NCBI GenBank assembly: GCA_011032825.1
Contig: JAADJZ010000022.1
Span: forward strand, 558,001-622,000
Length of the DNA stretch: 64,000 nt
Direction of reading: 5' to 3'
Origin: Massariosphaeria phaeospora
Taxonomy: Eukaryota > Ascomycota > Dothideomycetes > Pleosporales
Every line of letters starts with the position of its first letter. Within the stretch, counting starts at the first letter, position 1. The position numbers and the translations under genes were made by a program. The notes beneath the pieces are model-generated. The model saw only the letters and a program-made list of their open reading frames with translations. It searched no databases and had not been told where the DNA came from. Shown one piece after another: positions 15,286-36,922 of the stretch.

Positions 15286-17128
15286 ATGACCCCTCAGCTT
15301 AGCGTAGCTGGAATGTCGCGGAGAGCTGGCACCATCGATGTTTCCCAGATTTCTGGCCAGTCGTCGTCCTCTCTATCTCAATATGGAGTGTCCAAACGAA
15401 ACTCGGATCCAAATATCCCGTTTTCTCAGCAGACACCAAGGTGGGTGCCAGAAACGTCACAAACCGACAGATCCTGTCGACACTTTTCCTTCGGTCACTA
15501 CAGCAGTGGGAAACCGCCCTCAGAGGTGCTCAGATTGTCAGAAGCCCAACAGGGTGCCTCCGACGTAAACTGCAAATCTGAAGATAGCCAACAAGTTACC
15601 ACGACCAGATTCAAAATAGATGGATACCCCGCTGCTTCCGGAGATTCGAATCTTTCTGACTCCACACATCGCGCTCTTCGACACTCGTACCATGGTTATC
15701 CGTCAACGCTAGGACTAGGAACAGGCGCAGTAAATAGGGGTCGCGGAGTATCCCATGATATATCCGTCGTGTCGCATGGCTCAGCTGCTTCAAAACAGCT
15801 AGTGCGCGAATCACAACTAATGTCCCCAGCCGCAAGAGATACGGAAACATCTGAGACAAGTCGTGCGCATCTTGCACACAACTCATCAAATTTGCCTGAA
15901 ACCGGGGAGTCCGATCCCCCATGTGCCGAAGAACAAGCTAGCACGTCTCAGCCTGCACGGCTATTGCAGTTTGAGTCGTCTTCAGTTGGCGGCCAAAGAA
16001 TTCCTGTTACATCAGGAGCACAATATGAGCGGGGAGTTACAGGCTGCAACGAAAACACACAACTAATCCTAGCGCAAGGGGACGTAGGACAGCAGCATGT
16101 TACTCAAAACTCGGACCAGAACTTGGATCAAGCCAACCCAGTCAACACAGAACAGCGCCTCGACCCTCTTTCTCCACGGCTTCCTCTACGTGCGCACTCT
16201 TCGATAAATGCCAATATGGAACAGTCTGCTATTCGCGATGAACGTGCAGACAGTCCACAAAACGATTTTTTTCCGTATGGTGGACTACCGTTTCCCCAGC
16301 GTTCACAAGGACGACATCAGACAGCCTCCAAAGATGCGATGAAATCAGAGAAGAGTCAAAGTCGATCCAGCTCAGGTACTCGTGCAGGTAAGAAGAGGAG
16401 GTGGACTAAGCTTGCTACTGTAAAACGTTCGAACGGCGGGTCATCTCAGACTCCTTATTCGCGCGATGACAACTCGCGAGAAACCCATTTACTTTCACCC
16501 AAAGAGTACTTCGACACGGAACTGCGGGAAATGAGTCATTCACCAATCTCTGGACAGAGATTCTCGACAAGAGGTCTTCGAGGCGAACGGCGTTTTCTAC
16601 GTGATCATTTCGGAAGTTCCCGGTCCTCTTCACTATGGCTACGAATTAATCCACAAGCCTCGATCTTATTTCAAGAAGGGCAGGGCTTTCATGATGTTGT
16701 GGACAGAGCCAACGGCCAGTTCAGGATCGGAACGCACTATCTACTACAAGATACGTCGCTTTGTTGTAATCAGACAAAAGTCGACCCACTGTCTATGCTT
16801 GCCTATAAACACTTATTCTGGGCAGGGAATAACGAAGCGAGGGATATACGTTCAAGATCATGCAGCTGTTGTTTCTGCGGGTGGCGAAGGCCAGCTCATA
16901 GAACGGGAACAGGAACTTACGAAATCGTCGTTATACATTAAAACCGAGGATCCTAGCATATCGATCGACTCGGCATCTCTTATCAAATTCGGTAAGGTCT
17001 ATACTGTGGAGTATAACCTGAAGGTGAAGAACATCGGCAGAATCCTACCAGCATCTATCTCGCATCTGGAGAGTTATGTTGTCGACACGCTCAAACTCAG
17101 CTCCACAATCGAAAGCTCCAGGACATAA
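15286..17128 (+). CDS. DUF6590 protein, copy A (partner of STAND gene A)
   Basis: Two exons, 15286-16505 and 16558-17128, give 596 residues. The join is proposed from frame: a 52-nt intron at 16506-16557 (GTACTT...ACAG) brings the long Ser-rich frame into phase with the DUF6590 frame; without it the domain is out of frame. Residues 1 to about 405 are low-complexity (Ser, Gln, Thr, Arg) and likely disordered, with a basic patch near AGKKRRW. Residues about 420-590 are a complete DUF6590 domain: KPRSYFKKGR (440-449), KIRRFVVIR, CLCLPINTYSGQG, and VKNIGRILP near the end. The gene is intact. It lies 640 bp upstream of, and on the same strand as, STAND gene A, and the same order recurs at copies B and C. 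Its function is unknown; the recurring pairing suggests a shared role. Confidence 0.8.
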
Positions 17129-17768
17129 GATCTGGTACATAACACAGCCCTAGAAGGGCTTAAACCCCTCTGCTTCTGATCAGTAATGCTGTGGTCTCGA
17201 GAGACGAGTTCAATCCAAGTCGACTACTCTTCAACGAGCGCAAGGATTTATCTATGGAAAGAATATACACGGGGCACACACAAAGGGGTTCTTCAACAGA
17301 CCCGTTCATGCTCACTCTTTTTGACGGTATCTAAAGTTGATCCGGGCTTGATAGCCCTCCACTCGACGTCATTTACTATGTTCATTCACGGCTGGGCCAT
17401 GTATACGTGGGCTCATTAAAGGTTGCAGTTCATTAGCACATCTTAATATCTAGACAGGCTTCAGATTGACAGAAGTTCCACGTGATCCAAATATGCCCGC
17501 ATAATCCTGGGCATGGGGCGTCATTGCCCCGCTATCGTATCAGAAAAACCAATAAAGAACAATGAAGTCAAGTTTTGGCAAGCGACTTGCTTCAGCCTTC
17601 TCCCAGTGATTTCTCTGCAGGGACATGCTCTTGTGGCGGACTCTGAGTGGATGTGGCCACTGACCGGTTTTACAGGCCTTTTCCTGAGGCTTTCTGAGGC
17701 TCTCAATGGCTGGCCCTATATCAACCTCGTCACGCACAGGTCTCACACCGGTCCCAGTCTACGACCAA
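17129..17768. other. Intergenic between DUF6590 copy A and STAND gene A
   Basis: This 640-bp spacer should hold the terminator of the DUF6590 gene and the promoter of the STAND gene. The frame of the STAND gene is open upstream to 17706, but ATG 17769 fits the start of the homologous N-domains better. No repeat or motif is seen. Confidence 0.4.
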
Positions 17769-20700
17769 ATGGTCGATCCCGTAACCCTCATCAGTGCGCT
17801 CGCCGTGGTCACGCAGTTGTTGTGTTATGGCGTCGAGGGCATAAACGCCATCTCCGATACTTCCAGTCGCTTGCGCCTGGCGCCAGAGACCCTGCAGCAA
17901 TGGAAAGACCAGGCTCGCGTCTCCTTGAACCTCGTCACGATAATTGAAGCCCAACACAGCATCCAAAGCAAAGAACTATGCGAAATTCTAGAGCGTTGCA
18001 GAAATCTTGTCGTCACTCTTGAGTCCAGAATACAGAGGTTGTCAGTGGTTGCTGGGGATAACAGGTTCAAGAAGCTCAAAAAGGCAGTGAAGGCCGTCCG
18101 ACATGAGAAACAGATTCTCCAGACCCTGAGCTCAGTAAAAGAGACCTTGTGAGTCTGAATTAGATCTTATCGGCCTTTCCAACCAGTCTCTAACTCATGT
18201 CCTAGAGCATGTATTCAGGGCATCAGTGATCAGTCGAGATATATTCCGAGACCAGTGTATTTGTATTCTGCAAATTCTCGTCTCGTCATGGTGAGTCCAT
18301 CTGATCTCCAAAGCAGTCTGTCGTGCAAGCAAATAGTGGGAACTGACCAAGGTTAAGGCGACACAATTCCGTATGTCTTCATCGCTGATAGAGGACGATA
18401 TGCGATCGAACAAGCGATTTATCGGCCAAAACAAAGTTCTGTACGCCCTTTCTCGCATGGCAAATCCACAGTCAGAAGGGGGAAATGGCTTCCGAAGAGT
18501 CACGTTGACTGGATTGGGCGGATCAGGGTCAGTAGCTTTCTCTTGCTCCAAGTGCTAGAAAAGTATTAAGAATTTACCGTGTACAGGAAGTCAGCAGTCG
18601 CCCGGGAATTCGCTCATCGACTCTTCCACGCATCGCCGGACACGTTGATTTTCTGGCTCGACGGCTCAAGTGCCCCCCGCTTCCTGCACAGTATTCGAGC
18701 TATCTTCTCACCCCAACAGCCAGATCTCATGGGAGTCAAAAACTGGTTGGAATCGGAATTCTCTCCGCCGTGGTTGATGATCGTGGACAATGCGCACATG
18801 GAGACATTCTTCGGCAAAAAGCAACTGCACCGATTGCTTCCGGACTGCTCTCATGGCCGGATTATATTCACGTCGAGGAACCGCAATGTCGCGCGTACGC
18901 TCGCCGGTCTTTCGCAAAAGTTGCATGCTGTTGAGATGAACGGCATGGATCGCCGTGATGCCAGTCAACTCCTACTATCATATCTGGAACATGATACCAG
19001 TAACGAGGACGATAATGATCAACTAGTTGCCCGCCTCGAGCTCTTACCACTGTCTATCGTGCTAGTGGGTCTTCTCATATCATCGAACTCCATGACGGTG
19101 ACCAACTGCCTTTCATATCTAAAGACGGATAAAGGAGCCACCTCGAGACTCATCTCCGACGGACTGTCACTTTTTCGCACTCGGGGCCATAACTCTCCGG
19201 AGATTGCGACCCCGTTCCTGTCTTTGGAAGAACTGAAGTCTCAAAACCCTCACGCTGTACCGATGCTAGCAGCTTTGTCATGCCTAGATGGCCAGAACAT
19301 TCCTGAATCATTCTTCTCGTCACTTTGGAACCCTTCCGAGATATCTGGCGCCCTATCTTCGTTGCAAGCATTTTCAATCGTTCGGCAAGGGGATTCGTTC
19401 GACACGTACTCGATAAATCCCATGCTACGCTCGTTGATCAGATCGGAGCTCAAATCTATCCCCGAGTATCTTCAGTACATGGAATCGGTGCTACTGTTGC
19501 TGGACTCACACTTTCCCCGGTTTTTCAGAGACTATGATTCATACAGGAATGGTCGCTATTACTCAACACATGTAATATCGCTTCTCGACTTTCTTGTCGA
19601 CCATTGCTCTGGCCAGCAACTCACGAGGAAGCAACTAGCGATCCTGGCGTCGCTGGCATCGCGTTTCTCTAACATTCTGCTGGAAATGGGACTTTACAAG
19701 AAGGCGCACGCCCTGACGCAAGGAGTGCTTACCTAGGGCGCGGATGCATTCGCATCCGAGTTTACCGCGTCTAGCACATTACAAAACATTCTTGGTGCCG
19801 CTGACCAACATATGGGCAACTACGATGTGGCCGCGCAAATCTTTGGACGGAATCTTCGGACTCAGACGATCCTGCTTGGAAGTGACGACATGGAAACCAT
19901 TCATAGTATGAACAATTATGCGCTGGCCCTGCAACAGCAAGGCATGTTTCAGAAGGCGGAGAACTACCATCGCAAAGCTCTTCACCGGAAGAAAGCGCTG
20001 TTTGGTTCAACGCATCCAGAGACATTGACGACGCTCAACAATCTCGGTCTCTGTATTCAGTCCCGCGGTGACCATGTCTCAGCTGAGTCATTTTTCCGCG
20101 ACGCGATAGCTGGACGAGAGCGGTGTTTGGAAACCGACCATCCCGCGGCCCTGCGAGCCTTGAGCAATCTCGGCATATCCCTCCAACTCCAACAGAGATA
20201 CGAAGAAGCAGAACAACTACAACGTTATACGCTCTTAGGCCGCCACCAAGTCCTGGGACCCAAACACCATGAGACGCTTCGCAGTAAACTCAACCTTGCC
20301 ATCACCTTGCACTACCAGCAGAAATGGCCAAAAGCCGAAGCTCTACTTCGCCAAGCCACGGCAGACTTCGAGGAAGTCTTGGGCCCGGATCATCCAGAGA
20401 CTCTCACCGTTCTTGAGAACCTAGGAAAGCTATTGCGTGACCAGGCACGATACGACGAAGCCGAAGTGGTGGCAGTGAAGGTTCTCAGCCTCGTCCGACA
20501 GAAAAATGGCGATGAGCACTCACAGACTCTGGATGTATTGCAGCAGCTTGCCAGTTTACTACATTGGCAGGAGAGGTATGAGGAGGCGCTGGAGCTCGCG
20601 ACCCGCGCTCGGAATGGCCGGAGTCAGCAATTTGGAACAGAGGACCCGAGAACGCAGACCAGCGCCCAGCATGTGCAGCTCTTGGAGGATTACCTGCAGG

Positions 20701-20948
20701 ATGATAACACGCTGGACGACTCGGACGAAGATTCAGACGATGACTCGGAGGAATGGGTCCTTATCGATGACATATCACAAAGAACTCCAAGTTCAGAGTC
20801 GGATCTCCTAGATACTTCCAAGCAACACGACGCTCCTTTGGATTTGGTGGTGCGCGAGGATTCTTCGAGTCCCCAAGTATACTCGAGTATTTGGTCCATG
20901 GTATTCCTTTCTGTCGCGGTTGGCGTCTTTGCTGTGTCCGTCGCTTGA
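17769..20948 (+). pseudogene. STAND NLR-like protein (N-domain / NB-ARC / TPR), copy A, cut by one TAG
   Basis: Exons are 17769-18148, 18206-18290, 18358-18527 and 18587-20948, 999 codons in all. The first 130 residues are a helical N-domain homologous to the start of gene B. The P-loop GLGGSGKSAVA is assembled across the 59-nt intron 18528-18586. After it come Walker B (WLMIVDNAH), IIFTSRN and an LPLSI block typical of NB-ARC. The 3' half has about six 42-residue TPRs, then an acidic linker and a hydrophobic tail of about 20 residues at the very end. One in-frame TAG at 19734-19736 (codon 595) separates NB-ARC from the TPRs. The frame stays open on both sides, and gene B has Trp at this point, so TGG became TAG, a CpA-to-TpA change on the other strand. 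Unless read through, the product is 594 residues of N-domain plus NB-ARC. Confidence 0.88.
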
Positions 20949-22422
20949 GTCTTTGATGTCTTCGTACGTTTCGGTGTATTTCAACTTTCACAAGATGTAA
21001 CTGGACTCCTTTACGGCCTTACTATGATTTCGTTGGATGGTATCACCCCGAAACCGTATCTTCAACCTAATATTTGCCCTCCTCAGATATGCCTCTTACA
21101 AACAGTATACGTGACTAGTGAAGCCACAGGTCTGAGCAAAGTCGACTCTGCAGTCCCTTCGCCTAAACGAGGGGTAGCAAACGCTTGCTGGCTATTCCCA
21201 AATCGAGGGCAACGTCGTCTCAGAGGACATCGACCAATATACCGGCAACGTCATGCTTCCTGCACAGTATAGCATCCCTTCGATTATCCCATACCACGTT
21301 ATACTTTGAAGAAGGCCGCGAACAGATGAAGATCTCAGAAGACGCACGTTGGAAGATGAGGACTCCGAAAGAGTACGGCGAAGAGGACGAGGAGCAAAGT
21401 GATTACGTGTAGGCAGGCCGTTCTCGTGTAACTGGAGAATATGTCTAGTAAGACACCGCTGCCAAAATTATATGCACCATATGCGACAATACCAATGCTA
21501 TAGAACGCGTTCGATACTGCAGAGATATTGGGTGGCACAGGTCAGGTTCGACGCGGGTATGGCTAACGGAGAGGTAGGGCATCGAGCGGGAAGGTAGGTA
21601 GCCGAGAGCTGGAGCAGCTTGTGTCGTTGCTAGGAAGTGGGCATCTATTGGCAGGTAAGTAAGCTGTGCTATATGGGCTCTATTGTACAGGTCTAGCTTG
21701 CAATGTGAACCCGCGTAGACGGTAGCTGTTCATGGCGATGGAAATACCGGGGCTTGACGTGGAGAGTTTCGGTGTATGAGATACCGTGTTCGTGTATTGT
21801 TAAGGTAAGTTGTCTCCGTGGACAATAAGTAGATCTGGACACGGTTCATCGTTTGCTCGCTCGTACGGGCGTTACGGGCGGTACAGCCCAACAGCCCGCA
21901 ATGGCGCATTTCCGCGTTGAGAGGGGTAAAACATAAAGAGAACGATGTAGTATCCAAGGACTTGTAACCTGTAGTACGATGATCGTGACTGGGCTGGCGA
22001 CTATCGAAACGGGGTGAATATCTCCTTGCGTATCTCTAAGGCGCAGGGCGTGAATATCTCGCTGCGCAATTTCCAAGGCGCACTTTTCGCCAAGACCTGC
22101 TATCTAATCTAATCCGAACCTGCCTAATTAGGCAACTTCTTTATCCGTCGATCGCAGCTTGGGAAAAACCGAAATCAGACTGCATCCAGACTGATTGACA
22201 ATCCGTGCTACACACCTGCCGAGTTTCCATTACTGCTGGCCTCCTAGGCTAATACGTACTCACCTCATTTGGTTCTACTGTACTCTGCATTGCTCAGTAT
22301 ACTGGATACAGCAAGACTTTTTCAAGACCGAGGAAAACTCCTAATCCTGTGCTAGAATCGTCTATAGGGTCAAGAGGATCGCGGGAAGCCCGCCAAGACC
22401 GGAACCGTTTTCGCCACCAGCC
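20949..22422. other. Intergenic, no supported gene
   Basis: This stretch contains only short frames without motifs. Two near-repeats of about 20 bp (gtgaatatctccttgcgtat / gtgaatatctcgctgcgcaa, around 22014-22070) are the only local structure noticed. Confidence 0.4.
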
Positions 22423-23142
22423 ATGCCTCTCACCAACAAAATGGCCAATGCTCAAAGAGAGCAGAACTGCTTCGCCATCACCGCAGAGAGGAAGTACTAC
22501 CACGTCAACAACAGCTTCATCAAGCGGTCGCTTCGTCCCAGCGAGTGGCAGATAAGCCCTTCCAAGGGAACCATCCATGTTCCGAGGTTGAGCATCGAGC
22601 GCATTCTGAACGAAGCAGCAGCCCTGACATATGTCAAGGAAAACTCCACTATTCCCGTCCCCACGCTCCACGCCTGCTTTGAAGACGACCAGTCGGCCTG
22701 CCTCGTTACAAGCTATGTCGACGGCGTGTCCATGAGCGCGCTCAACGACGAGGAAAAGGCGTTTGTGGCGCGCGAATTGGAGTACCATGTTAGCTCTTTG
22801 CATGCGCTCCGTGGACCCCGGCTGGGGGGCGCATCGGGCCATGTAATCCTTCCTTATAGGATGTCACAGAAGACATTTCGAGATGATTGGGAGTTGCGGA
22901 CGTCCTCGAGTGCTGGATATCCCTTTTGCCACAACGACCTCTCCCAGCAGAATGTCATTGTCGACCCCGACACGCTCAAGATCGCTGCTATCATCGACTG
23001 GGAGTATGCGGGGTTCTTTCCGGAGGAGTTTGATGTGCCGTTCTACAGGCGCTTAGGTCCGTCGGTCGCTATCAATGGCGAGGAAGATGATACGGATAAG
23101 TTTATGCAGTTCGTCAAGGATCATCAGGTAATGCAGATATGA
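22423..23142 (+). CDS. Aminoglycoside phosphotransferase (APH)-family kinase-like protein
   Basis: This single-exon gene encodes 239 residues from ATG 22423. The N-lobe is short; a conserved hinge-like stretch (ACLVTSYVDGVSM) is followed by the catalytic loop FCHNDLSQQNVIVD (168-181), with catalytic Asp in HND and metal-binding Asn. The IIDWEYAG motif (190-197) supplies the DFG-equivalent Asp. These are the signatures of the APH/choline-kinase superfamily, whose many fungal members have unknown substrates. The protein is at the short end for the family. It ends 106 bp before the convergent 3' end of STAND gene C. Despite the name, drug resistance should not be assumed. Confidence 0.85.
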   Translation: MPLTNKMANAQREQNCFAITAERKYYHVNNSFIKRSLRPSEWQISPSKGTIHVPRLSIERILNEAAALTYVKENSTIPVPTLHACFEDDQSACLVTSYVDGVSMSALNDEEKAFVARELEYHVSSLHALRGPRLGGASGHVILPYRMSQKTFRDDWELRTSSSAGYPFCHNDLSQQNVIVDPDTLKIAAIIDWEYAGFFPEEFDVPFYRRLGPSVAINGEEDDTDKFMQFVKDHQVMQI

Positions 23143-23248
23143 TTCAGTATTATTTAGTGACTTCGCAGAAGAACTTGCAAGGGGATTTGGTATCAGCAAC
23201 AATCTTGCGTGCTCCAGTTTCATACACCTCCCCACCCTCCCCACCCTC

Positions 23249-26234
23249 TCACCCCTCCTCACCGGAACCGACCAGCGCCCTCGAACGCACCCACTCGTCA
23301 TAGTACTCCTCCAACTGCCTAACATGCGTCTCACTAGCCCTGCGCTCCGCACTCTCCACCGGCAACACCGCCCTCCTCATCTCCAACACCATCCTAGCTA
23401 GCTCCAACGCCTCGCCATACCTCGCCTGGCACTGGTACACAACACACAGATCGAACATAGAAGCCATGGTATCCGGATGCGTCCTATGCAAGTTCTTCTG
23501 GCGGCCGCGCAGCACGCGGAGGTAGACGTGTTCGGCCTCGCCATAGCGCTTCTGGCACTGCAGCAGGATGGCCAGATTGCGGTGCATGTGCAGCGTAGTA
23601 GGGTGCGCGCTGCCGAATCTCGCCTGGTGGCTCTGCAGCACTTCGCGCGTGGTGCGTTCCGCTTGCGGCAGGTCGCCGCGCTGGCGGTGGATCTGCGCGA
23701 GGTTGGCCTTCCAGGCGATGGCGTGGGGATGCGCGGCGTCGAAGAGCTGCGCGAGGCCAGACAGCGCTTGCTCGAGCTGCTGGGCGGCTTCGTCCCAGCG
23801 CTGCAGGCCTTGCAGGACGCAGCCCTTGTTCGCGAGTGCGACGAGCGTCTTGATGTGCTGGAGACCGTGGATTTCTTCCATCCCGTCGAGCACCGTCTGG
23901 AGAATATTGAGTGCTTTGGTGTACTGGGCTTGGCCGAGGTGGGCGAGCGCGAGGTTGTGCATTTGGTCGAGGGTTCGGGGGTCGTCTTCGCCGTATAGCA
24001 TCTCGCAAATGGCAATGGTTTGGTCGTGGTGGACGATTGCTTCGGTGTAATTGCCTTGGCTCTGTAGGGAGAGTCCTTTCTGGTTGAGCGTGGAAATAAT
24101 AGCTGGGTCTTCATCATCGTCTAGAAGATCGAGCTGGCTAGTCAATACGTCGCCTATCGTGTCGGCGTAGACATGTAGGTTACCGAGATGACGCTCTATC
24201 ACGGCCAGATTCCGTTGACAGATGAGCGCGCGCATTGATTTAGGTCCAGTACCAAATGTGCTGATCCTAAGTGCTTCTGTTGCGAATCTTTTCGCTTCCG
24301 CATACCGTCCTAGGATCTGCAGATAGCGAGACACTCTCGATGCCAGCTGCTCTGCTTTCGTGGAGTCCACATGCTTCAAGTCTTGTTCTTCTGGAGATCC
24401 GAAAAGTTCTTCCCATATTGCGACAGTATGCGGTAGGTACTGATCGCATTGGATGAGGTGTGAGTGCTGCTCATCCTCCGAAGGATATTTTGCGGCCATA
24501 ATTTTGAACGCTTCCGTGGTATATTTTGTACGTTGACCAGTGTCCTCCAGGTATACTCGTACAGCAACGTGAACAAGTGAATGCATATCGAATACATTAT
24601 CCAGCGGATCACCAGTGAGGAGCGAGAATACTTTCAGAATACCGAGGTCCTTGGATATTTGGATTGAGTTAGTTCCGGTAGTAAACAATTCCCTAGGGAT
24701 ACGGAATGGCTCCATACAAGCCATCCTACATAGAAGACACAGTGCTGTCTCGCTCTGGGCTTTGAGAGCGTCTATCGAGACAAAAGATTGTATGAACGCT
24801 ACGCTCCGGAACATTGCATTTGGTTTGAAGACCTTCGTGGACCCGAGGAGGGCTGCCTTAGACTTCCAACTCTCATTTAGATGGCGAAGATATGCCCATG
24901 GTGAAAGAGATAGCTCTCTCATACATGCAGCAGCTTGGACGATGGCCAGAGGCAGATACTCGAGATGAGAAAGTAATGGCGTGATACTTTCGTCGTCGAC
25001 TACATCGTCGTCGAGCTGGGACGTTAAGAGACGATAGGCATCGGCCCTGTTCAGCGCCTCCATCTTGAACGCACTCTTTGCCTTGACTAGCTGACACGCC
25101 AGGGCTTTATCCCGGGTAGTGAAAAGCATCGATCCTTGTTCCTTGATAGGGAAGTATCCGTCACAATGCTTGATCGTTGCCGAGTTTATATTATCTACGA
25201 CAAGAAGCCACTGTCCAGATGCAGACGAGGTGAGCCAATTTGATACATCGATCATCCTAAGATTACCGGAAGAAGTGAGGTCTGACAATTGTGCATGTTG
25301 TCCGATTCGAAGGAAGCTGTGCTCGAAATTTGCTTGGCTGGAAGCGCGGACTCAAAAAATCGACGTGGTTGGTGTGGCTTTGCGAAAGCGGGACACAATT
25401 TCGAGTGCGGCTTGAGATTTTCTGTTCTAGTTTAGTATTTCAATGACAATGTTGTTCCAATACGCGGCTGAGAGACGACTATACTTACCCAATTCCACCA
25501 AGACCAAAAAGGGCCGCTCTCTGATCCAGGCATGGTGTGAGCAGGCATTGCAAGATCGGGTCTAAGAAAGCGTCACAAGTGATGAACTCCGATTTTGGGG
25601 GTAGGTTCAACATGATAGACACCGTAGTGACTCGTGGGGTTTGAGGGATCGCATTATGTTGAACATCAGCTGGTGTGGCGCCGTGAAAGGGCTGGGGTGC
25701 GTGTCGGTCAAGCCCGAAGTTTGTGCTTTGAGGCTTTGAGGCCTGCAACATATCTCCAGGAAGTAACAGACTCTACTATGTTAGCTTTCAGATGTACATC
25801 GCTCCACTGTCCATTACTCACAAAGATGTGTATATCTGTAATGTCCTTTGACAGGTTGCTATCTGTTCCTTCATGGCAGTGATCTTTTGCAGCTGCTTGA
25901 AGGACGCTCTCGACTTCCTCAACTTGACGCGTGTTGTATCGTGATCCTCAATGACTAACGGCTCAAGCAGACTCTGTAACGGGCGAGCTGAACGAATGCA
26001 GTCATCCATCATGGACTGAAGGCGGCCTGGGTGGTTGATCAAACATGACTGAACAGTTGGTGACTGCGCCATGACTAAGAAGTTATCCAGCTCTTGGATC
26101 GATGTTTTGATTAAACCTGGAGCGCTTCGTAAGCTACCTGGATATTTTGATAGTCGTTCAAAACTCCCAAAAGTCTATACTGCAATCTGGGCAACGGCGG
26201 CAATTCCGCCAGCAACCACGAGAAACTCCGCCAT
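23249..26234 (-). pseudogene. STAND NLR-like protein (N-domain / NB-ARC / TPR), copy C, with several stops
   Basis: It reads on the minus strand from ATG 26234. The N-domain (MAEFLVVAGGIAAVAQ...) is homologous to copies A and B but has TAG at 26175-26177, where A and B have Tyr. The P-loop GLGGIGKSQAAL is assembled across a 67-nt intron (25422-25488). Beyond it TGA at 25352-25354 replaces the Trp that copy A shows in its IFW block. The rest is one long clean frame (23249-25288): Walker B (LLVVDN), LFTTRD, LPLAI, a winged-helix region, then at least six 42-residue TPRs and a charged C-terminus. Exons between 25489 and 25860 could not be joined in phase. A shorter TPR-rich product could in theory start inside, but the full protein is lost. 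It is convergent with the APH gene. Confidence 0.85.
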
Positions 26235-26949
26235 GTCCAAAGAACGGCAAGGGAAACTGGCCGAAGTATCGGCATGCTGGCCAAGCGGGGATGTGCGGAG
26301 TTTTTGAATTCTGGGCGATTGAGATTGAGCCCGGTTGCGCAACAAGGCACATGGCTGAGCACCTGCCTCCTAGTCGGGTCGAGGTCACAATCGTTACCTC
26401 ATATGCAGCAAGGCCGCACACTGTGCCTCACTTCATAGGACTTACTCACAGTGCACTCGTGCTTGGTAGTGCGTGGCGCGAGTACTCGCTTTCTCTCATC
26501 GGATAGTATTGTCGGCATCCGTAATCTTCTCCTGATCGTTTATACATCCCCCGATGATCGATAACGTATGGAGAGCCTCGAGGTGTCAAAAGCTAAAGTC
26601 GTTAACCGAATTTGTAGCACATTGATTCTGCATTGGGAGCTATCCTGCTATTAGAATCAGACATATATATTGCGGTTTCAGTAAAACGTTCGGAGAAAAC
26701 ACTGTGCCTAGATCGAGTGTTAGACATCCCAGCAATTGATCTTGTGCATTCTAGCGATGATTTCGTGCTAGCTCAAGTTCATATCCTTCTAGAAGCTCTT
26801 ACAGAGCTCACGCGTCGAGACTGTGGCGGAATTACCTCTCCAATGATGATAAGGACCGCCTTGATATTCAGCCTAATCCTTCGGTTTTTGACTTGATGTT
26901 ATGTTTGATATTATGCTCAACGGTAAAACCTTTGTCAAGATTGACCTTA
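26235..26949. other. Spacer between DUF6590 copy C and STAND gene C
   Basis: About 700 bp, similar to the 640-bp spacer at copy A. A plus-strand frame of 87 codons (26633-26896) has no recognised motif. No other feature is seen. Confidence 0.35.
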
Positions 26950-27976
26950 AAAAGCGACAGGCTGTATTGTGCGATCCTTGATGACGGCAGGAAGCGCGGG
27001 CAAGTCTGGATGGCGTGCAAACTATTTTAGTATCTCTGAGTGTGTACACCCACTATGCAATACCGCATGCACTGCTGGAGTCACATCTTTCCTCGACGTG
27101 CCTTCCAAGGTTGTTTGGAACAAGTGTGGACTAGGTGACATATGGAGTGACCGGATCTCGTTCGAATCACTACAAACAGTCGTACGATCGTAAAGGCCAA
27201 TATTCCTCGGCCATGAGGATCATGCCACGGAACCACGAGGATCCGTCCCTCAGCGAAAGATGTCCTTGGGCTCCTGATACCTTCATAGGCTAGAGAACTC
27301 GGTGACAGGGACATGGATCTCGTGGTAGAGTGACGTACGAGAATACAGCTCTCGATTGTAGGGGTTCGCAGGATATCCGTTTTCATTTTCTTGCCACTCG
27401 GTCGACCAGTCGAATCTAAAGACCTATTAACAGTCATGCAGCCTGTCGAGTCAGCAAACCAACGCTTTGCAGGTACAGTCACGTACTGATGGTTGCAGTA
27501 TGTTAGGGTGTAATCGCACATGAGCTGTGGTAGGAAGAGCTCGCGAACGAATTCGGAAAGGGATTGTATTGTTCCGGACAGAGGACATCCGCGTTCGACT
27601 GTACGGTAGGTTGCTGCGCGCCATGGTACGTGTATGAGGAACTTGTGTTCGAATATGTGTCAAATACCCTAGGAGTAGCTGCATGACGTGCGCGATACGC
27701 TGAGTCGAAGCATTCATGGATCAGATGCAGATGGAGACCAGAGCGCCACTCGTTAGCACCCATTACGCTGCGGCGACGAGGACTCTCACGTAGAGAAGAT
27801 GAGGGGTTCGTCAACAATGGAAGACGACATGGCCGTAGATGTGAGCGGATGCGCATCAGTGAGTAGACATTGGTGTCGCGCAAGAGAGCGGGGCAAAGTT
27901 CGGGCCGGCGGGGTACTTGGCACCTGGACGCCCGGGCCAGCCTCGCTGCCCAGACCTCGGGAGTCGTCATCGTCAC
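26950..27976 (-). pseudogene. DUF6590 gene, copy C, broken
   Basis: The minus-strand frame 27503-27976 is a Ser/Tyr/His-rich, disordered-looking N-terminal part. The frame at 27081-27521 contains the start of a DUF6590 domain (SPRTSFAEGRILVV, then IVRLFVVIRTRSGHSICHLVHT). It then loses frame near 27090; the following sequence continues as domain-like protein in another frame and meets a TAG near 27025. The usual KxFFKKGR opening has drifted to SFAEGR. The gene sits just upstream of, and on the same strand as, STAND gene C, repeating the order of copies A and B. Assignment rests on motif order and position; similarity is weaker than for the other copies. Confidence 0.55.
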
Positions 27977-28235
27977 CCTTCGCCATCATACCCTTTGTAC
28001 CTCTTCGGCCTCTTCACAACACAGTTCTTCACCAACAATACATTTCCACAGCACAACCGTCACAGCCACCAAGCGTCTATTACTGATCGTATCTTGTTGT
28101 TTGTATCCGGAGCTGCTAGCTTGACCGCCGTACGCGCTCGCTAACACTGATAGATCGCTTCACCATCCACGAAAAGCACAGCGTCCTGCTCCCACGTCGT
28201 CCTGCCTGCGTAAACGCGATTCCTCTTCACATCGG

Positions 28236-29322
28236 TGTAGATCCGAGAAGCCGGTAGGAGCCAAATTCGAACCTACAGCCTCGCGCCCATACCTACCCAA
28301 CGAGCATCATCAGCCAAACTCTCCTGCATCGGTCGACAACGGGGAAGTACGCGGGCGTACAGTCCCCGATATACTCGATCTGAGTCGCGTAACTACGTGG
28401 ACCATTGTCAATGCCCACTCGTCTCCGGGGCTTCCACCATTCCAATGTACGTGTGAAGTCATTGATCCATGACCTGAACCGGCCTACTTAGTCACTTAGG
28501 TCAACACTAGGGCGATCGGTCGATAGCAGAGTCCAAGCTACAATCACTCTTGCCCCCTTTCCACAAGCACCAGCATCACATATTGAACGCGAGGCGCTAG
28601 ACGGCGATCAACATACCCAGGTACCAGATCGACTTTCAGATATCGCCTTTGGATTTTACGTTCACATCGGTCAGCATTTCGCTACCTGGACCACTGCCGT
28701 TTTTTCCTTTCATTCCTCTTTGCTGCATGGGGCCAATTACGAAATTACCGCTTCTGCTGCCGTGTCCCTCTCTTTCTTTTCCTTGCCGTTCGTCCTATTC
28801 TATGCCGCTTCTCCATCAGCATCATGGTATAGCATTACTCAAGGTGTATTCCGGTCTACCTTTGCGATGGCTGCTTTCTTCTGGCTTTGTTGTTACCAAT
28901 ATGCTGCTGTCCAAGAAGCCCATCGACCAACCTATAGCTCATTCCACAATGATATATATTTCGACTACTCCAGCATTACCCATACCGGAAGCCTCTGGAA
29001 TCGAGGTATCCCTCAATGGCTTGACCCCAACCTGCCTTCAGAACCTCCGCCGCTTGCATCGATACTGACAACCTTTCACGCCGGTGTACCACATCCGAAT
29101 TCGTCTCCAGAACCCCCTGCATTCCCACCAATTCCAACACCCCCTTCCCCTTCCGATCCTTCTCCCGATCCTTCTCCCGATCCTTCTCCCGATCCTGCCC
29201 CTAATCCTCCCCCAGAACCTCCACATCTTCCACCCATCCCGACGCCCATCGATACCGCAACGCTCACTTGCAGGGAGACATTGACGGAATGCAGTCTCAA
29301 ATGCTCTTGTATTGCGGTATGA
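28236..29322 (+). CDS. Hypothetical protein with hydrophobic segments and a Pro-Asp-Pro-Ser repeat
   Basis: An open frame from about 28236 joins to 28500-29322 through a well-formed 53-nt intron (28447-28499, GTACGT donor, acceptor TTAG). The start codon is not identified and may lie in an earlier exon. The protein has two hydrophobic stretches (SLSFFSLPFVLFYAA and MAAFFWLCCY), then a proline-rich region whose core is three copies of the 12-nt unit tctcccgatcct (29159-29194), giving PDPSPDPSPDP. It ends with a short Cys-containing tail (CRETLTECSLKCSC). No family is recognised. The clean frame across a plausible intron supports coding, but the N-terminus is uncertain. Confidence 0.45.
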
Positions 29323-29806
29323 ACTTAGATAGATGCTCTTAGATAGAAGTTGCACTTAGCCCAATTTGCACCACAAGACCGTGATGAGTAGTAGTTGTTC
29401 AGTTTCTTCCACGAGAGTGCGGTACGATTCAGTTGCAAAACTCGTTTCCGCAAGGAAGGAAAGAACACACTCCAAATGGTGGAGTGGGCTGACGGTTTCA
29501 TATGCCAGTCTGACACGTCGTCGACGTCGAAGCCGGAGACGTGTCTCCGTCATCAAGTTCATGAGCCATCTGAGGCATCTAGAAAGCTTCCGAACACATG
29601 CCATCAGGAACGATTCTCCATCCATCTCTCACCCGATTGAGGTAGCATCCTACGGCAGAACCATCTTCATCACGAGGAACAAACGATAAAGTAGGCGCCG
29701 TTAGGCCCTCGACTTTCATAATTCAAGATATTCGCAACCACTATTGAGACAAACGACTTTCATTACAGGCCGCTGATATCCAGGCAAACAGCCTGCACCT
29801 AGAGCC

Positions 29807-29893
29807 TCACAACTTGAAGTCGCTTTTCACAAGCTTTTCGCTCAACGCCCACAGCCTCTCCGCATTCTTCGGATCTTTGGCGTAAGGCGCTGC
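29807..29893 (-). pseudogene. Relic of an SDR gene 3' end
   Basis: The last 28 codons and stop of an SDR gene, homologous to the end of the intact SDR gene at 38442-39653. Comparing the two, nine codons differ, eight of them silently, and one changes Arg to Ser. The piece therefore came from a gene under protein-level constraint and was not produced by recent copying of the intact one. Similarity also extends past the stop into 3' flanking sequence. Upstream the SDR sequence stops abruptly near 29894, where a TPR fragment on the other strand begins. Confidence 0.75.
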
Positions 29894-29897
29894 ACGC

Positions 29898-30235
29898 ACG
29901 TCAACCTCGCAATGGCACTTCACGACCACGGCAAGTTCGACGAAGCATGAATAATCGTCTCACGCGTCTTGCCGCTGTTTGAGTCGACCGTCGGCGCTGC
30001 TCATAGGCATACCCTCGAAGCGATGGAGTTGCTGGTCATTCTGTATCAGCACCAGCAAAGATTTACCAGAGCACTCTGGTTCGGTACCCGGTTGCGTGAT
30101 CTGCGCATTCAACAGCTGGGCCCAGATCACGCGGATTCTCGGCGAAGTTGTCGCCATGTGGAAGATTTGGAGGAGGATGTGGAAGAGATAAGATCCACTC
30201 ATGTCTTGTCGGGGCAGGTCTCCATCGTCGCGTAA
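29898..30235 (+). pseudogene. Relic of a STAND gene TPR C-terminus (copy D)
   Basis: A plus-strand fragment reads as the last two TPRs and C-terminal end of a protein like STAND copies A and B: LAMALHDHGKFDEA, a TGA at 29948-29950, then LEAMELLVILYQHQQRF, RALWFGTRLRDLRIQQLG and SRRSCRHVEDLEED. These line up with the ends of A (LELATRARNGRSQQFG) and B. No N-domain or NB-ARC is found upstream; the fragment abuts the SDR relic at about 29895. It is non-functional and marks a former fourth copy. Confidence 0.75.
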
Positions 30236-31258
30236 TATCCTCGTTTCTGTGTGGCATCTCTTTACGATAATCTTCCTTTTCGTATATGTTTTGTGGAACA
30301 GCATGTTTTCCGTCCTCGCCTCTCTTCTTTGTTAAATCTGAATAACGTCAGAGTATCTTACGTGGTTTTCGCGAGTTCCGCCATTTTCGAGTTCCGCCAC
30401 TCGGGTTTGCCGCCGACGGCGTGACGCGTGCTCTCTTTCGTGTATGCATTGCGTCGTACGCTGTGCACCGTAGCACAACAACGCGCCAAACTCGCAAACC
30501 CGAAAAATGGTTGGACCTACTGCAAGCAACACGAATATGCGGCGTTATCGGACCCGTCGCAGGAGGGTGCTACCTTCACGTTCGACCGGTCGATCAATCG
30601 AGAGTTGATGAGCAATCGTCACACGATAGCAATATGTGATCGGATTCTTGGCATCGCCACTTGATTCCTTCGCGAGTTCCGAAGATTTGCCCCCGCACGT
30701 GATACCACCTGGAGCACGTCGTTGTGTTTTGGTGACACAGACCACTCATTTAGTTCGAGTCGTGACACAGACCCGTTGAATCGCGCACAACACGAGGGGA
30801 TGGGAGTACAACACACCGCAAGTTTGAGTTTTCACCACCCGCGTTGAGCATCAAGGACGCCGTGCGGTGTGAGTGACATGGTGTCGCTGCGCAATGATAT
30901 GGCGAGTATCCTTCTACAGTACGCTCATAGTGACCTCGAGCAAGTGAGATACGCCTTGATAAGAAGAAGTTAGAGCCAGTCGGCTAAGAATCCAAGATTC
31001 GTGACACGTTTCGGGGGTAAGCCGGTGCCACACATCTTGCCAAATGACTGGCTAATGCCGTGGTCAAAAACTAGATACATACTAACCCTATTCTATGTCA
31101 ATCGCATGACACGTTGATTCGGGGGATGGTCTACATGTTTCATTGCACATCTAGCGCCGCCGTGTACATCTAACTGGCCCAAGTGGGCCTTTTCTTCCTC
31201 CTCTCTCCTGCTGCTACTGCCTGTTACTACAGTTCTTCCGCCTCATACCAAAGACAAC
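30236..31258. other. Intergenic, no supported gene
   Basis: Only short overlapping frames are present, without motifs. A pair of 12-16 bp near-repeats with gttccg(cc) around 30370-30400 is the only visible structure. Confidence 0.4.
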
Positions 31259-31797
31259 ATGGAGTGTACGCGCCTCGAGTTGAAGGAAGGTCCAGGTATG
31301 TCTTCGTTACGAGTCCCTCCTGACATCTACTGACCAGTTCAGATAACCCGAAGTGGTTGACCCGTCTCTTGCCCTATCCTTCGGGCTTCGACCAGCCACT
31401 TCGGATGTCACCCACATCTCGGTACAAAGCCCTCGCCATCGCTCGAGCTATCAGGTTGAAGAATGTTCTTGCACCGAAAGTCTTAGGCATTGGGCCATCG
31501 CTACACGGAGAAGTTCGGACAGAGGAATATATATGGCCACATTATACATGCCATGCATGCCTCCAACCCTTCGCAGGGCACCGGCCCCACGACCGGAACG
31601 CCATCTCAAACCACACAAGCTTATACGCCAGCGGTTCCCACGCCGCCTTCAACCTCCTCCACCACCACGGATCGAATACCGATCCGTCTGGGCCCACGGA
31701 GACCCAAAACTCTTCGCCGCCACCACCACCTCCTCCTCCTCCTCCGCCGCCGCCGAGAAACCCGCCGCGACCTTCTATACAGGGGGAAACACAGTAA
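31259..31797 (+). CDS. Small hypothetical protein with polyproline tract
   Basis: Two exons, 31259-31295 and 31343-31797, give 163 residues. ATG 31259 has a good context (caacATGG). The 47-nt intron 31296-31342 has a GTATGT donor, a CTACTGAC branch and a CAG acceptor and keeps the frame. The middle contains KALAIARAIRLKN, a likely helix. The C-terminus has a run of 13 prolines encoded by CCN triplets (about 31720-31760), a repeat prone to length change. Two other frames are also open through this region because of the triplet repeat, so the frame choice rests on the intron. No family is recognised. Confidence 0.45.
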
Positions 31798-33245
31798 TTG
31801 CGAGTGCAGTGGGGTCACGCGATTACTCGTTCGTTGAGACGCCGGACTATTCTATTCTCGTCACTCATTCACACCACTTTTAGCTAGTTCTAGTTTTGCC
31901 TCTGTAACAGATCAATGTGAACACTGTCACTTGGTTTCCATTTATTGCGAGTGGAGCCAGACATGTCATCTTTTCGTGTTCCACTCTGGTGTTGTTTAGC
32001 GTGATGTTGTGACCCTAGGTGCGGCTGCAGTTTCTCATTGGATGACTGCGATCTAATCATGCACCCACTCCGATCACGGCCCCAGATCTTATACTATGAA
32101 AATACAGGGCACGTAGTAGACCTGGATCTTCCGCACCTATTCTCAGCACAAGTACTCTAGTGCGCTTCCGAGAACGCTAAAATGAAGAGTAGGGCTACGT
32201 CGCCATCACGACCATGGAAATGGTAACGCAGTTTCCCCTGCCTACGCCTTTTGAACATACTCTGTCGACTTTTGCGGCCTGTAGTTTTGGAAGATAAGTT
32301 TACTAAAAGTTGATACCTAAACCGGCTTGACTCAGTGATGTGGTCTACCTGTTACAATGTGTCGACTTCAAAATCGAAAGAGCATTCAATTTCTTTCGTT
32401 CCTTGACGACCAACCCCCCTAGCAAAAAGAAAACACTTACTAGACCAAACCAGACGTTCCCCACTGTTAACAGGCATGTTGAAATTTACGTCGAATTAAC
32501 GATCATCATGAGCCCTTACCCAAACAATACACAGGGATGTCGCGGGGAGCGACGGGCAACGTGCCGTCAAACTAACCTCTTTTCAAATCTACTGCAGAGG
32601 TTTGTGTCACGAAGTAGTAGGTCGTGAAGATGCTGCGATGTTAAGTTAGTATATAGGCGACGCTGGAGGGCAGGCACTGCTTCGGAGTGTGTCTCGAATA
32701 CAGCAACCATGCCTGCTCCTAGATGAATAGCATCAAACAAAACGATCAAGCAAATACTGAGCCTGGGGCTCATAACGGCGCCATGATGATGCTCGCAACG
32801 TCAATGGTACCTACATCCTACCTACATACTCTAGTGCGAAGCTTGTAAGGGTCGAGCCGCTGTGGGAGAAAAACTATGGACGGTCATTCGTCCACTGTTC
32901 ACCGTTCAAGGAGGGGTTGGGACCTGGGACTGCAAGGTCGCGGTCTCCCCTGCCGATGTTGTTGGCAGACATCCCACATGTCTGGTCGCCCTGGCTTCGG
33001 CAGAAGAGGCCCGAAAATCGCAGAAGTCGATATCTCGTTGAGTCGGTTTAAACCCGCAGTATACTTCTGAGGATAAGGAACCTTTATTCTCAGTGCACAC
33101 GAGATTGCCTGAAACTAAGTCGTGACTTTACTCTTCTCACACCGAGGTTCCTGGTGATAGATGTTCAGTGGTGCGTGGTGCGTTGTGGTGCAAGGCTTCG
33201 GGCGTCAGTCGCGACGTGGCAGTAGTCCTAGAACCACCGAGCACG
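31798..33245. other. Intergenic, no supported gene
   Basis: A minus-strand frame at 32567-32773 (68 codons) starts with a hydrophobic, signal-like stretch (LSICLIVLFDAIHLGAGMVA), but no second exon could be joined. Nothing else is supported. Confidence 0.35.
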
Positions 33246-34804
33246 ATGCTGCGATCATCGATAGCAGAGAATCATCACAGCCCCCATGGCGAGCCTCCAG
33301 GAGCCACTAGATCCCCGTGCGAGTTCTCCTATCCTCTTCAGGCGAAACGTCGAGTAACCATAACAGAGTACGTCTCGCGAACGTCCGACTTCTTTACGAT
33401 AGGCAAGGTAAACGCCCACTCAACGCAAGCTCATGACATCCTTCCTGACCAGCAGTTACAGACATTCTCCACGTTAATAACCGAGCCGCGCAAATCCCCG
33501 GGCAACGATGCCGCCAACACCACCACCGTGCGTTTCGGCGAACTCGTTCACACCCGCATCGCGCGCTTCGTAGTTGTCCAGCGTGGTCGAGGCTTCGTCT
33601 ACGGGTGCGAGATACAAACATACGGTGGCCGGGGCACACTGCGGAAGGGATGTAATGCGGAAGAGCACTCTGCTGTATACATGAAAGGAGACCAGCCAGT
33701 ACTGATGCCGGGCGAGGTGTTGGCTAAGAAAGCTATCGAGATTGTTCCGGCGACTCCTGATATTGGATCGCTGTCACGGGCATCGAGGATTCGCTTTGGA
33801 AGGGGTGTACCAATTCAATGCGATGTCAAAGCGAAGGACATTGGACATGTCCGTGAGGATCATGTTCCAGTTCTGGTGTCTTATTGGCGTAGGGAAATGG
33901 GTATGGATTCTGGCAAACAGGATCATGACGAATTACCTACTGGGAGCGATCGGGCGACGGATGTTGAGAACTATGTTTGGTAAGCACAAACTCATACACT
34001 TGACTAAAGGTAAGAAGGATACTGATACTAGTAGCCCCGGACCATCCACGTTAGACGACGCGGAGAAAGGAAGAGTGGCTCCCGATACTTACAGTTCTGA
34101 GATCGCAGATGAATACGGGATGCGACCGCAGGACCATAAGTCACAGCTCGTACCACAAGCCCATACGTCCCCAAACACCCATGTCACTCCCGCTCCACGT
34201 CGAGACATAATCCGGTCAGCCGGGCTCGAATATGTGATGATATCGGAAGTGGGAGGGGAACTGCATTCCGGTCTGGACACCACCCTACGAGGCTACCACC
34301 CGTCTGACATGTGTACTGACATTGCCACCAGGTTTCGAGACGATCAACAAGCCTCGAGGCTTCTTCAAGAAAGGACGAATATTCATGGTTCTGCTACCCC
34401 AGCCTGCAGGTAGTCCCGAAACCGAGCGAACTGTCTACTGGAAGATACGGCGATTCATCGTCGTCTGGCCGAGGCAATCGCACTGCTTGTGTGTACCAGT
34501 TGGAACATACAATGGCAAGGCAACGACCAAGCCAGGCGTCGTTGCGCAGGATCATGCCCCTATCATTGCAGCAGGGAGCGAGGCGAGGCTGCATCCTGAT
34601 GAAGAAGCGCTCCAGAAGGCTCCGCTCATCATGAAAGTCGAGAACCTTGGCGTGTTTCTAGATCCCCTGTCTCGCGTCAACTTTGCGAAGATATCGACCA
34701 TTGAACATAACCTAAAGGTGAGAAATATCGGCAGAGTCCTCGCTGACTCAATCAAGGACATGGAACGATATGTCGCCGAGACGTTGCAACTTACGAAAAC
34801 TTGA
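33246..34804 (+). CDS. Protein with two DUF6590 domains, copy B (partner of gene B)
   Basis: Proposed exons 33246-33979, 34035-34270 and 34332-34804 give 480 residues with all phases matching. The first domain (about residues 35-225) is divergent: it keeps RIARFVVVQRG, EIQTYGGRGTLRKG and VKAKDIGHV, but its opening KPRxFFKKGR is replaced by RTSDFFTIGK. The second (about 300-475) is canonical: KPRGFFKKGR, KIRRFIVV, CLCVPVGTYNGK, LDPLSRVNF and VRNIGRVLA. The first intron begins inside TGGTAA, so an unspliced message would stop at once after domain 1 and give a single-domain protein. Its acceptor is a TAGTAG pair, both in frame. The second intron has a weak GTCTGG donor but a good TACTGAC branch. 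Two separate genes are the alternative. It lies 283 bp upstream of gene B on the same strand. Confidence 0.65.
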
Positions 34805-35087
34805 CAAGTTTGCTAGTGGAGGAAAATTTACTCAGAGGTTGTCGGCTTTCCGATTACCATACGGGACATCGTCCAATCAACATCCATGCGTCACCGGTGA
34901 ACGATACAGCCACCAGATCGGCAGTCGCCCTTCAGGGTGCCACCAGCCTGATGACCCCAGAAGAGCATGTATTATCGGCTTTTCCCTATTGGCCTGCACG
35001 TAAAGACCGCAGCAGAAGGACAACAGGGGAGCCGATCACTCAAAAGCAAACTCATCCTCGTCCGTTCGATTTTTTCCGTGGCATACA

Positions 35088-36922
35088 ATGGCCGAAGCAA
35101 TCGCTCTCGTCGGACTAATCGCGGCAATCCCACCGTTGTTCAAGTACGGTCTCGCTACCGTGCATGGGGCATCAGGCATTTCGACCAGTCTACGTTCGAC
35201 TTCGGACCTGTTACAGGAATGGAACGAGCGACTTGAATCATACCAGCATCTCATAGAACAGCTGGAACCCCACCTGGGATTTTCGACCGTCCCCGCACGT
35301 AGCATCTTGCGATGCAGACAGCAAGTTGCAGTTGTTGAAGCTTTGGTTCGGAGCCTCGATATTCGTACTGGTAACGGAGTACCTCGATTTTGGAACAGGG
35401 TGTTGGTGGTCCGGAAAAAGAAGAAGATAGTGCACGATCTGTCGTCGATCAGGGAACAGATCGACGTTCTCAAGACCTACCCAATACTCCACCTGCTTCG
35501 TATAGGCGTAGTTCGAGTAAGTTCAGCTAGCCTTTCCTCAATTTGTGTTTGAGTGGACCCTAACTGATATCAAACCGCTAGGCTCCGAACCTGGACCTGA
35601 GCCCGACTTCAGAATTCCCCGAATTAGATCCTTTGATGAACCGAGTGGTCACAGATGAGATAGATCTTGAACAACTATCCCCTCAGGACTTGGAATCTGC
35701 ACTGCGGCGTATGGATTCGGAACTCCCAGCGAACATGGATAATATGGACTCCGTCCATACTGTTCGATCTTGTACACCCTGCATCATCTCATTCATCCGA
35801 ACTCTTACAAAATCCTACTCGGAGAAGCAGATCTCCGGGCGCATTCTCGGCATCGTCCTATCTATGACGTCTCGTTTCACGTTGTTCTTAGCCGAAATCG
35901 GAGCTGTATGCGAAGCCAAGGAGATAGCGGAAAGAATACTGAGCTGGGCTGTAGACATGGCCTCCTCGAACTTATCGTTAGTTAGTCTACTTCAAGGAAG
36001 ATTAGCTATCGCCGAAAGATATGCAGGCGATGTCCAGACCGCAGAGCGCCTCGAGAGCGAAGTGCTGTGGGCTCGAATTGGACTGCACGGCGAATCCCAT
36101 ATCGAGACAATCCACAGCCTCAACAACTCAGCTCTCGCGTTGCAAGCTAGTGGCAGATTCGACGAAGCCCTCGATTCACATCGCAAAGCCTTAACAGTGA
36201 AAGAGAAGTTGCTCGGCGCGTACGATCTTGACACTCTGCTCACGGTCCACAATTTAGGCCTATGCCTCCAATCTCTTGGCCAGCATGATGGTGCAAAGTC
36301 TTGCTTTCTTCGCGCTCTGATAGGGCGCCAATGCCTCCTTGACCCAGATCACCCTGCTATTTTGAGGACCATGGACTGTTTAGCAGTATCGCTTTACTAT
36401 CAGGAGCAGTTCGATCAGGCCGGGTTATTGCAGCATTACTGTGTTTCCAGACGATCGGAGATTCTTGGAAAGACCCATCCAGACACCCTCAGAAGCACGG
36501 AGAATCTTGCCCTTGTGCTTTTGTACCAACATAAGCCATTAGAATCTGAAGCGATGCTCCGAAAAGTAGCGAGCGATTTTGAAGACCTCTTAGGGCCAGC
36601 CAACCCCGAAACTCTCAATGCCCTGCACAACTTGGCAAGAGTGCTAAGTGAGCAGTTCCGATACGGAGAAGCTGAGATTATCGTGCGGAAATGCTTGCGG
36701 ATATCAGAATCGTCGCACGGGGAGTCCCATCCCTCGACTTTGGATCTACTTCGAGGTCTCGCAATCAATCTTCACTGCCAAGAAAAGTATATTGACGCTT
36801 TGTATTTTGCCATCCGTGTGCGGGACGCTTATACCGACCATTCCAGATACACAGGTTCAGAAAAAGAAGCCTGCATTCGTCATGTCGAGCAATTGAGAGA
36901 GTACCTACAGCGGACAAACTGA
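35088..36922 (+). CDS. STAND-like protein lacking NB-ARC (N-domain fused to TPRs), copy B
   Basis: Exons 35088-35516 and 35582-36922, joined in phase over a 65-nt intron (GTAAGT donor, CTAACTGA branch, GCTAG acceptor), give 589 residues. Residues 1-143 are the N-domain also found in copies A and C (MAEAIALVGLIAAIPPLF...). The second exon starts in a linker and goes straight into the region just before the TPRs of copy A, followed by about seven TPRs of 42 residues with the usual LNNSALALQASGRFDEAL pattern. The whole NB-ARC part, about 300 residues in copy A, is missing, yet no stop or frameshift is left behind. Either a clean deletion made a new short protein that is still used, or this is a young remnant. 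It has Trp where copy A has its stop. Confidence 0.85.

Follow-up and report, generated by a model that had tools for sequence, protein, structure and literature searches.

The window analysed here, a stretch of 64,000 nucleotides from the fungus Massariosphaeria phaeospora (C15:558001-622000 of a 42.1-Mb assembly in 51 contigs), contains three neighbourhoods in which a gene of the DUF6590 family lies beside a STAND-like gene. They were delimited by reading the window in six frames, by Pfam scans, and by exon models whose introns are frame-keeping GT-AG guesses made without RNA evidence; stretches without a Pfam match were called helical or coiled-coil by eye. The six genes are designated as follows.

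15286-17128, + strand: D1, DUF6590 gene 1 (exon model, PF20233 match, and fold model; open, 596 amino acids, 0 stops)
17769-20948, + strand: N1, STAND-like gene 1 (exon model, Pfam matches, and N-domain match to N2)
33246-34804, + strand: D2, DUF6590 gene 2 (exon model and Pfam matches; open)
35088-36922, + strand: N2, STAND-derived gene 2 (exon model and Pfam matches; open, 589 amino acids)
26829-27976, - strand: D3, DUF6590 pseudogene 3 (degraded domain)
23249-26234, - strand: N3, STAND-like pseudogene 3 (N-terminal region, NB-ARC-like domain, and TPRs; 2 in-frame stops)

Gene models of the three neighbourhoods

According to the original prediction for this DNA, a DUF6590 gene is followed three times over by a STAND gene that shares its strand; the order and strand are as claimed in all three cases, although N1 carries a stop and the third pair has decayed. 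The gene models likewise reproduce two of the predicted spacers, 640 bp at 17129-17768 and 283 bp at 34805-35087, within the limits of the guessed introns. D1 has a Ser/Gln-rich N-terminal region, a probable intron at 16506-16557, and a single C-terminal DUF6590 domain (PF20233 match at 16535-17125, E 1.8e-42). D2 has two such domains, D2a and D2b (matches at 33126-33980, E 3.1e-34, and 34241-34801, E 2.3e-39), which are probably joined in one protein of 481 amino acids by way of short introns at 33980-34031 and 34271-34331. In D3 the domain match (27084-27659, E 4.7e-05) reaches 23.9 bits against a cut-off of 27 and includes 3 stops.

On the receptor side, N1 has a helical N-domain that matches SesA weakly; a P-loop region, an NB-ARC/NACHT-like NTPase, TPRs, and a hydrophobic C-terminal tail follow, and introns are probable at 18149-18205, 18291-18351, and 18528-18586. 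By eye, its C-terminus (20700-20948) comprises an acidic stretch and then a tail resembling a membrane anchor. N1 is broken as read because of an in-frame TAG at 19734-19736, on both sides of which homology to the other copies is present; an intron spanning this stop was considered and rejected because the homology to N2 and N3, judged by eye, runs on without gaps on either side. N2 has a helical N-domain, a short linker, and then TPRs, with a probable intron at 35517-35581. The 42-residue TPRs that had been predicted for all three neighbours were borne out by matches to TPR_12 and TPR_10 far above the cut-offs in N1, N2, and N3, so that the repeats of a C-terminal superstructure are present in each, and those of N1 and N2 are 42% identical.

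The predicted presence of NB-ARC in some copies and its absence from others was recovered in part. N1 matched NACHT (E 0.0068) and NB-ARC (E 0.01), both below the Pfam cut-offs, and N3 matched NB-ARC (E 5.6e-5) with 23.0 bits against a cut-off of 23.5; the P-loop exon lay outside the scanned stretches, and these scores may therefore be understated. Once the exons are joined, both N1 and N3 contain GLGG(S/I)GKS, which we take to be a Walker-A-like motif. The Pfam scan of N2 yielded no nucleotide-binding (NB) domain at E <= 1. The claim that the three neighbours share the same helical N-domain holds for N1 and N2 (27% identity, E 8e-14); the N-terminal region of N3 matched neither of them in BLASTP at E <= 10. 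No SesA/HeLo-type profile exceeded its cut-off in these domains (N1 SesA E 0.0078, 16.8 bits against 26.3; N2 no match), and an AlphaFold2 model of the N-domain was all-helical with a predicted local distance difference test score of 56.7, too poor for a fold search. A genome-wide search found no other clear copy of the N1/N2 N-domain, the one further match being on contig C45 at E 0.3.

Predicted fold and conserved residues of DUF6590

In its predicted fold model, the DUF6590 domain takes up the barrel fold of MazF/PemK. According to the available text of PMC7354611 and PMC11130411, catalysis by MazF relies on an Arg from strand 2 together with a Thr from strand 3. Conservation was counted over 102 DUF6590 domains, and the most constant positions were R74 (89/98), T/S93 (93/100), Y94 (96/100), H109 (93/100), K101 (86/100), and E58 (90/93). 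R74 lies in a predicted strand (66-81) and falls, in a weak hhalign alignment, on R29 of Escherichia coli MazF, as a catalytic Arg would, while T/S93 falls on T53. Five of these positions (E58, R/K74, T/S93, Y94, and H109) are kept together in 72 of the 92 domains that have letters at ten checked positions. D1 keeps all five, as do two fusion proteins described below (P0012 and P0026); in a third, P0035, position 74 is K. Of the D2 domains, D2b carries Q at 58, and D2a carries A at 74 and is thus without R74. This residue set could be what a ribonuclease site looks like and is in itself no proof of one; given the modelled fold, ribonuclease would most likely be the activity of DUF6590. The original prediction had offered guard target, activator, and effector as possible roles, among which a MazF-like fold would favour effector.

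DUF6590 in fusion proteins and beside other genes

A total of 73 distinct DUF6590 proteins were collected from 5.8 billion within limited length ranges (25, 10, and 38 new of 39); for the last set of 39, scoring was restricted to the 7992 candidates with the most words in common. Immune-type domains occur in five of the 73:

P0012 (Viridothelium virens): PNP_UDP (E 1.7e-15), then DUF6590
P0013: DUF6590 N-terminal, then NPHP3_N
P0026 (Trypethelium subeluteriae): PNP-type region, DUF6590 at 384-518, a Pro/Gly-poor stretch, NPHP3_N at 765-926, a winged helix, and ankyrins
P0035: DUF6590, then HET
P0071: ankyrins, then DUF6590

P0012, P0013, and P0026 form one clade in the DUF6590 domain tree (support 100/98), and P0035 and P0071 fall elsewhere and apart from each other; because the fusion proteins occupy separate places, the domains must have been joined three times or more. 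DUF6590 lies ahead of the receptor part in P0013 and P0026, the order also seen for D1 with N1 and D2 with N2, whereas in P0071 the ankyrins come first. It is mainly these five fusions that support a functional link between DUF6590 and STAND/NOD-like receptor (NLR) proteins, as far as sequence comparison can show it, and that part of the original prediction is thereby strengthened from outside the locus.

Among the other proteins, P0020 carries PF26176 and P0028 PF26082, in both cases by database annotation only; UniRef names P0028 C2H2-type, and zf-C2H2 appeared only at E 0.13, in P0020. P0031, P0032, and P0033 (Botrytis, Botryotinia, and Oculimacula; 1542-1575 amino acids) combine DUF6590 with PF28131, again by database annotation only, and our Pfam scan of two of them gave DUF6590 alone. 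The remaining 63 list DUF6590 alone, with an additional Clr5 match to P0021 in our scan; P0058 and P0070 (Rutstroemia) bear the source name heterokaryon incompatibility protein, yet show only DUF6590.

Within the M. phaeospora genome, where match counts are lower bounds (best-scoring candidates only) and the grouping of matches into genes and loci is our own, at least 13 DUF6590 matches resolve into nine genes, of which five belong to the present cluster, three lie on contig C13, and one on contig C6. One member of the cluster lies 2 kb left of the window (C15:555.6k), and another lies within it beside a HET-domain gene:

6243-7411, - strand: D0, DUF6590 gene 0 (PF20233, E 8.5e-27; domain encoded by an exon at 6243-6722, with 5' exons that may lie in 6899-7411)
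8392-10563, - strand: HET-domain gene (PF06985, E 1.8e-33; 724-amino-acid open frame, stop to stop)

The HET-domain gene is upstream of D0 on the same strand (together 6243-10563), the reverse of the order in which the two domains are fused in P0035. TPR_12 gave at least 108 matches at about 20 loci, three of them in this cluster, and the repertoire of the genome for non-self recognition is large, with at least 106 HET and at least 66 NPHP3_N matches. Judged from the coordinates of the genome-wide matches, no TPR, HET, or NPHP3_N match comes within 30 kb of the three C13 genes or the C6 gene, and the contigs that carry the remaining TPR loci, about 17, show no DUF6590 match. With rough inputs (about 83 NLR-type genes, from 17 TPR loci and 66 NPHP3_N matches, in 42 Mb), about 0.003 of DUF6590 genes would be expected by chance to have, on their own strand, an NLR gene starting no more than 3 kb downstream; for a HET gene within 3 kb the figure is about 0.0135 per gene, assuming some 95 HET genes for the 106 matches. 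Because the three pairs form one duplicated cluster, they count statistically as about one event. DUF6590 was found in 0 of 14 control genomes, and no relative was confirmed in prokaryote genomes or viral contigs with one sequence pattern from the DUF6590 alignment and six from D1; a megablast of DUF6590 against E. coli genomes gave no match and was uninformative.

A candidate effector and the competing explanations

We propose, with a probability of about 0.42, that DUF6590 is a eukaryotic effector of the MazF/Kid/CcdB fold acting downstream of recognition by STAND/NLR (probably also HET-type) proteins, to which it is either fused or supplied by a neighbouring gene. The TPRs of the receptor would sense a non-self or damage cue, and the receptor would oligomerise through its NB domain; the helical N-domain, the clustered DUF6590 protein as a physical partner activated by the receptor, or both would then act, the MazF-like barrel attacking RNA or another core target, for example the translation machinery, with a growth stop or death of the fused or infected compartment as the outcome. 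More doubtful is the wider proposition that fungal NLR and HET systems use DUF6590 as a MazF-fold ribonuclease for cell death or growth arrest, fused in some lineages and encoded by a neighbouring gene in others.

An effector role as partner of a STAND protein is favoured by analogy, because the amyloid-signalling NLR units of fungi are gene clusters in which the receptor is sometimes inactive. In the available text of PMC3321046 and PMC12881547 these units are generally clusters of two or three genes (HET-S/NWD2, HELLP/PNT1, and sesA/sesB/STAND) in which a STAND/NLR gene adjoins a smaller effector-type gene, as here, on the same strand in some species and with the receptor gene inactivated in some strains, nwd2 in het-s strains being the case given in PMC3321046. 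The present cluster differs from them in that the partner would have a MazF fold rather than being a HeLo, lipase, or PNP protein, and in that no shared amyloid-type motif was found. The position of DUF6590 N-terminal to NACHT in P0013, or between the PNP-type region and NACHT in P0026, resembles that of the canonical N-terminal effector domains of fungal NLRs, for which the accessible part of PMC12258605 gives eight categories (HeLo-like, Goodbye-like, HET-like, sesB-like, PNP_UDP, Patatin, RelA_SpoT, and amyloid); neither DUF6590 nor a MazF-like domain is among these, nor among the 19 Pfam profiles in the portion of PMC9815663 available. From the bacterial toxins MazF, PemK, Kid, and CcdB, DUF6590 differs in being fungal, in occurring with long disordered regions or receptor domains, and often in tandem pairs; its PemK profile matches are below cut-off, and its conserved Thr is aligned one residue off the catalytic position.

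Several observations weigh against the effector proposal. In the alignment to E. coli MazF the catalytic T52 falls on the variable N92, one residue before T/S93, and a comparison of DUF6590 with 14 MazF sequences by hhalign was not significant (P 0.08, probability 0.4%), so that proof of MazF homology from hidden Markov models was sought and not obtained. PemK_toxin had no match at E <= 1 among 26 members of the DUF6590 alignment and none in D1; the best scores were 19.0 bits against a cut-off of 23.1 in P0036 and 13.4 in P0068, and the DUF6590 profile had no match to PDB sequences at E <= 10. D1 is without the conserved R149, P0013 without H109, and P0071 without R74 and R75. No immune-type domain is seen in 68 of the 73 proteins, and single fusions may be gene-model artefacts; P0013, P0035, and P0071 come from unnamed sources or metagenomes and P0026 from a metagenome-assembled genome, and the PNP_UDP of P0026 is a database annotation, accompanied by 76% identity to P0012 over residues 8-556, that our own Pfam scans did not report. 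Nor was a shared amyloid-type motif found between the DUF6590 protein and the N-domain of its neighbour, their local alignment doing no better than shuffles (291/300 and 49/300 shuffles reach the alignment score), and any signalling would therefore have to pass through another contact. Both NB-bearing receptors, N1 and N3, carry stops, while DUF6590 genes 1 and 2 are open. Finally, adjacency of DUF6590 to STAND genes is, within this genome, confined to this one cluster and is for that reason weak evidence on its own, the functional link of the original prediction gaining no support from recurrence in the genome, and two of the C13 genes stand divergent, head to head, with coiled-coil-like genes (562k-565k and 571.5k-574.6k).

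The decay of the receptors raises the possibility, which we regard as doubtful, that the locus is a relic without present function in this strain, its receptors lost and its DUF6590 genes left behind. The stops in N1 and N3, the lack of an NB domain in N2, and the decay of D3 all point that way, as do two further features within the cluster:

29951-30232, + strand: TPR relic (PF13424, E 1.4e-4, under cut-off), related to the C-terminal repeats of N1 and N2 (32% and 38% identity)
12214-12663, - strand: Tc5-type transposase DNA-binding fragment (PF03221, E 8e-9)

Set against this, D1, D2, and N2 are open over hundreds of codons, and inactive receptor alleles are known at loci of this kind, as with nwd2 above. 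Repeat-induced point mutation as the cause of the stops was rejected, there being no signature of it over six genes (TpA/ApT 0.57-0.72, (CpA+TpG)/(ApC+GpT) 1.07-1.29). In this strain the locus is an old cluster that has undergone duplication and partial decay.

Its age bears on an unlikely alternative, an accidental neighbourhood in which chance put an ancestral DUF6590 gene ahead of a STAND gene, with later duplication of the block; in another form of this explanation, HET, NLR, and DUF6590 genes gather in the same fast-evolving regions without any joint function. The restriction of the pairing to one cluster, with the C13 and C6 genes and some 17 TPR loci unpaired, is what accident would produce, as is the decay of several copies, and with HET and NPHP3_N matches so numerous some adjacency is to be expected. 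That DUF6590 has been joined separately to NACHT, PNP, HET, and ankyrin domains tells against it, and so does the order and strand kept by pairs 1 and 2 since a duplication that seems, from the tree, to predate the split from Lojkania. In that tree (99 rows, with many weak forks and 51 of the 96 inner branches starred), D2b and the second domain of P0003 from Lojkania enalia are sisters (100/91), P0001 joins these two (99/86), and D1 lies outside them (99/88 for all four); D2 groups with the two-domain proteins, and D2a falls with domain 1 of both P0001 and P0003 (100/99), while D0 and the DUF6590 gene of L010 are on long branches of unsure placement. D1 and D2b are 47% identical. That the pairs are merely recent tandem duplicates, an objection that the original prediction had raised against itself, is thus disfavoured.

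It is similarly improbable that DUF6590 is a non-catalytic binder of MazF/CcdB fold, serving as the guarded component, as a decoy, or as a regulator that holds the NLR inactive, with the helical N-domain of the NLR doing the killing; against this stand the conserved polar set kept in 72/92 domains and the NACHT-type P0013, in which DUF6590 alone occupies the N-terminal position. More remote still is a toxin-regulator pair in which DUF6590 works mainly with coiled-coil partners and the NLR link is a side branch: the two C13 coiled-coil-like proteins (29% identity over 263 amino acids, E 3e-28) have no further relative among the matches of a genome search, and both are divergent DUF6590 neighbours (C13:564k and 573.8k), and a frame facing the third C13 gene (289k-292.6k) is more weakly related (22.6% over 62 amino acids, E 0.004), but the two clear pairs probably trace back to a single duplication and the collected DUF6590 proteins had no BLASTP match to the coiled-coil-like proteins at E <= 0.01. 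The neighbours seen for DUF6590 genes are of three kinds, STAND, HET, and coiled-coil-like.

DUF6590 is named in none of 5.39 million open papers, a set without most subscription journals; there, PF20233 appears only in unrelated work on drug micelles, and searches combining MazF with fungi and NLR, or MazF fold or PemK-like with fungal or eukaryotic, returned unrelated work only. Among the matches listed by broader searches no title concerned a MazF-like domain in fungi. The NLR-effector gene pair is a known kind of arrangement, and the effector fold suggested here for it from sequence was not found described. Were DUF6590 indeed a MazF-fold partner, it would bring an RNA-directed effector into the repertoire of fungal NLRs and provide a function for a fungal family that has had none so far; as a ribonuclease of cell death or growth arrest, it would be the eukaryotic equivalent of the toxins of bacterial abortive infection, incorporated into innate immunity. 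As far as the available text of PMC12881547 goes, fungal NLRs have NACHT and PNP in common with bacterial defence, along with a HET domain for which a relation to TIR is proposed.

Two further features were recorded in the window, the first between N1 and N3:

22345-23139, + strand: APH-type phosphotransferase-like open frame (PF01636, E 3.4e-10)
55735-56193, - strand: protein-kinase C-terminal piece (PF00069, E 1.1e-5, below cut-off)

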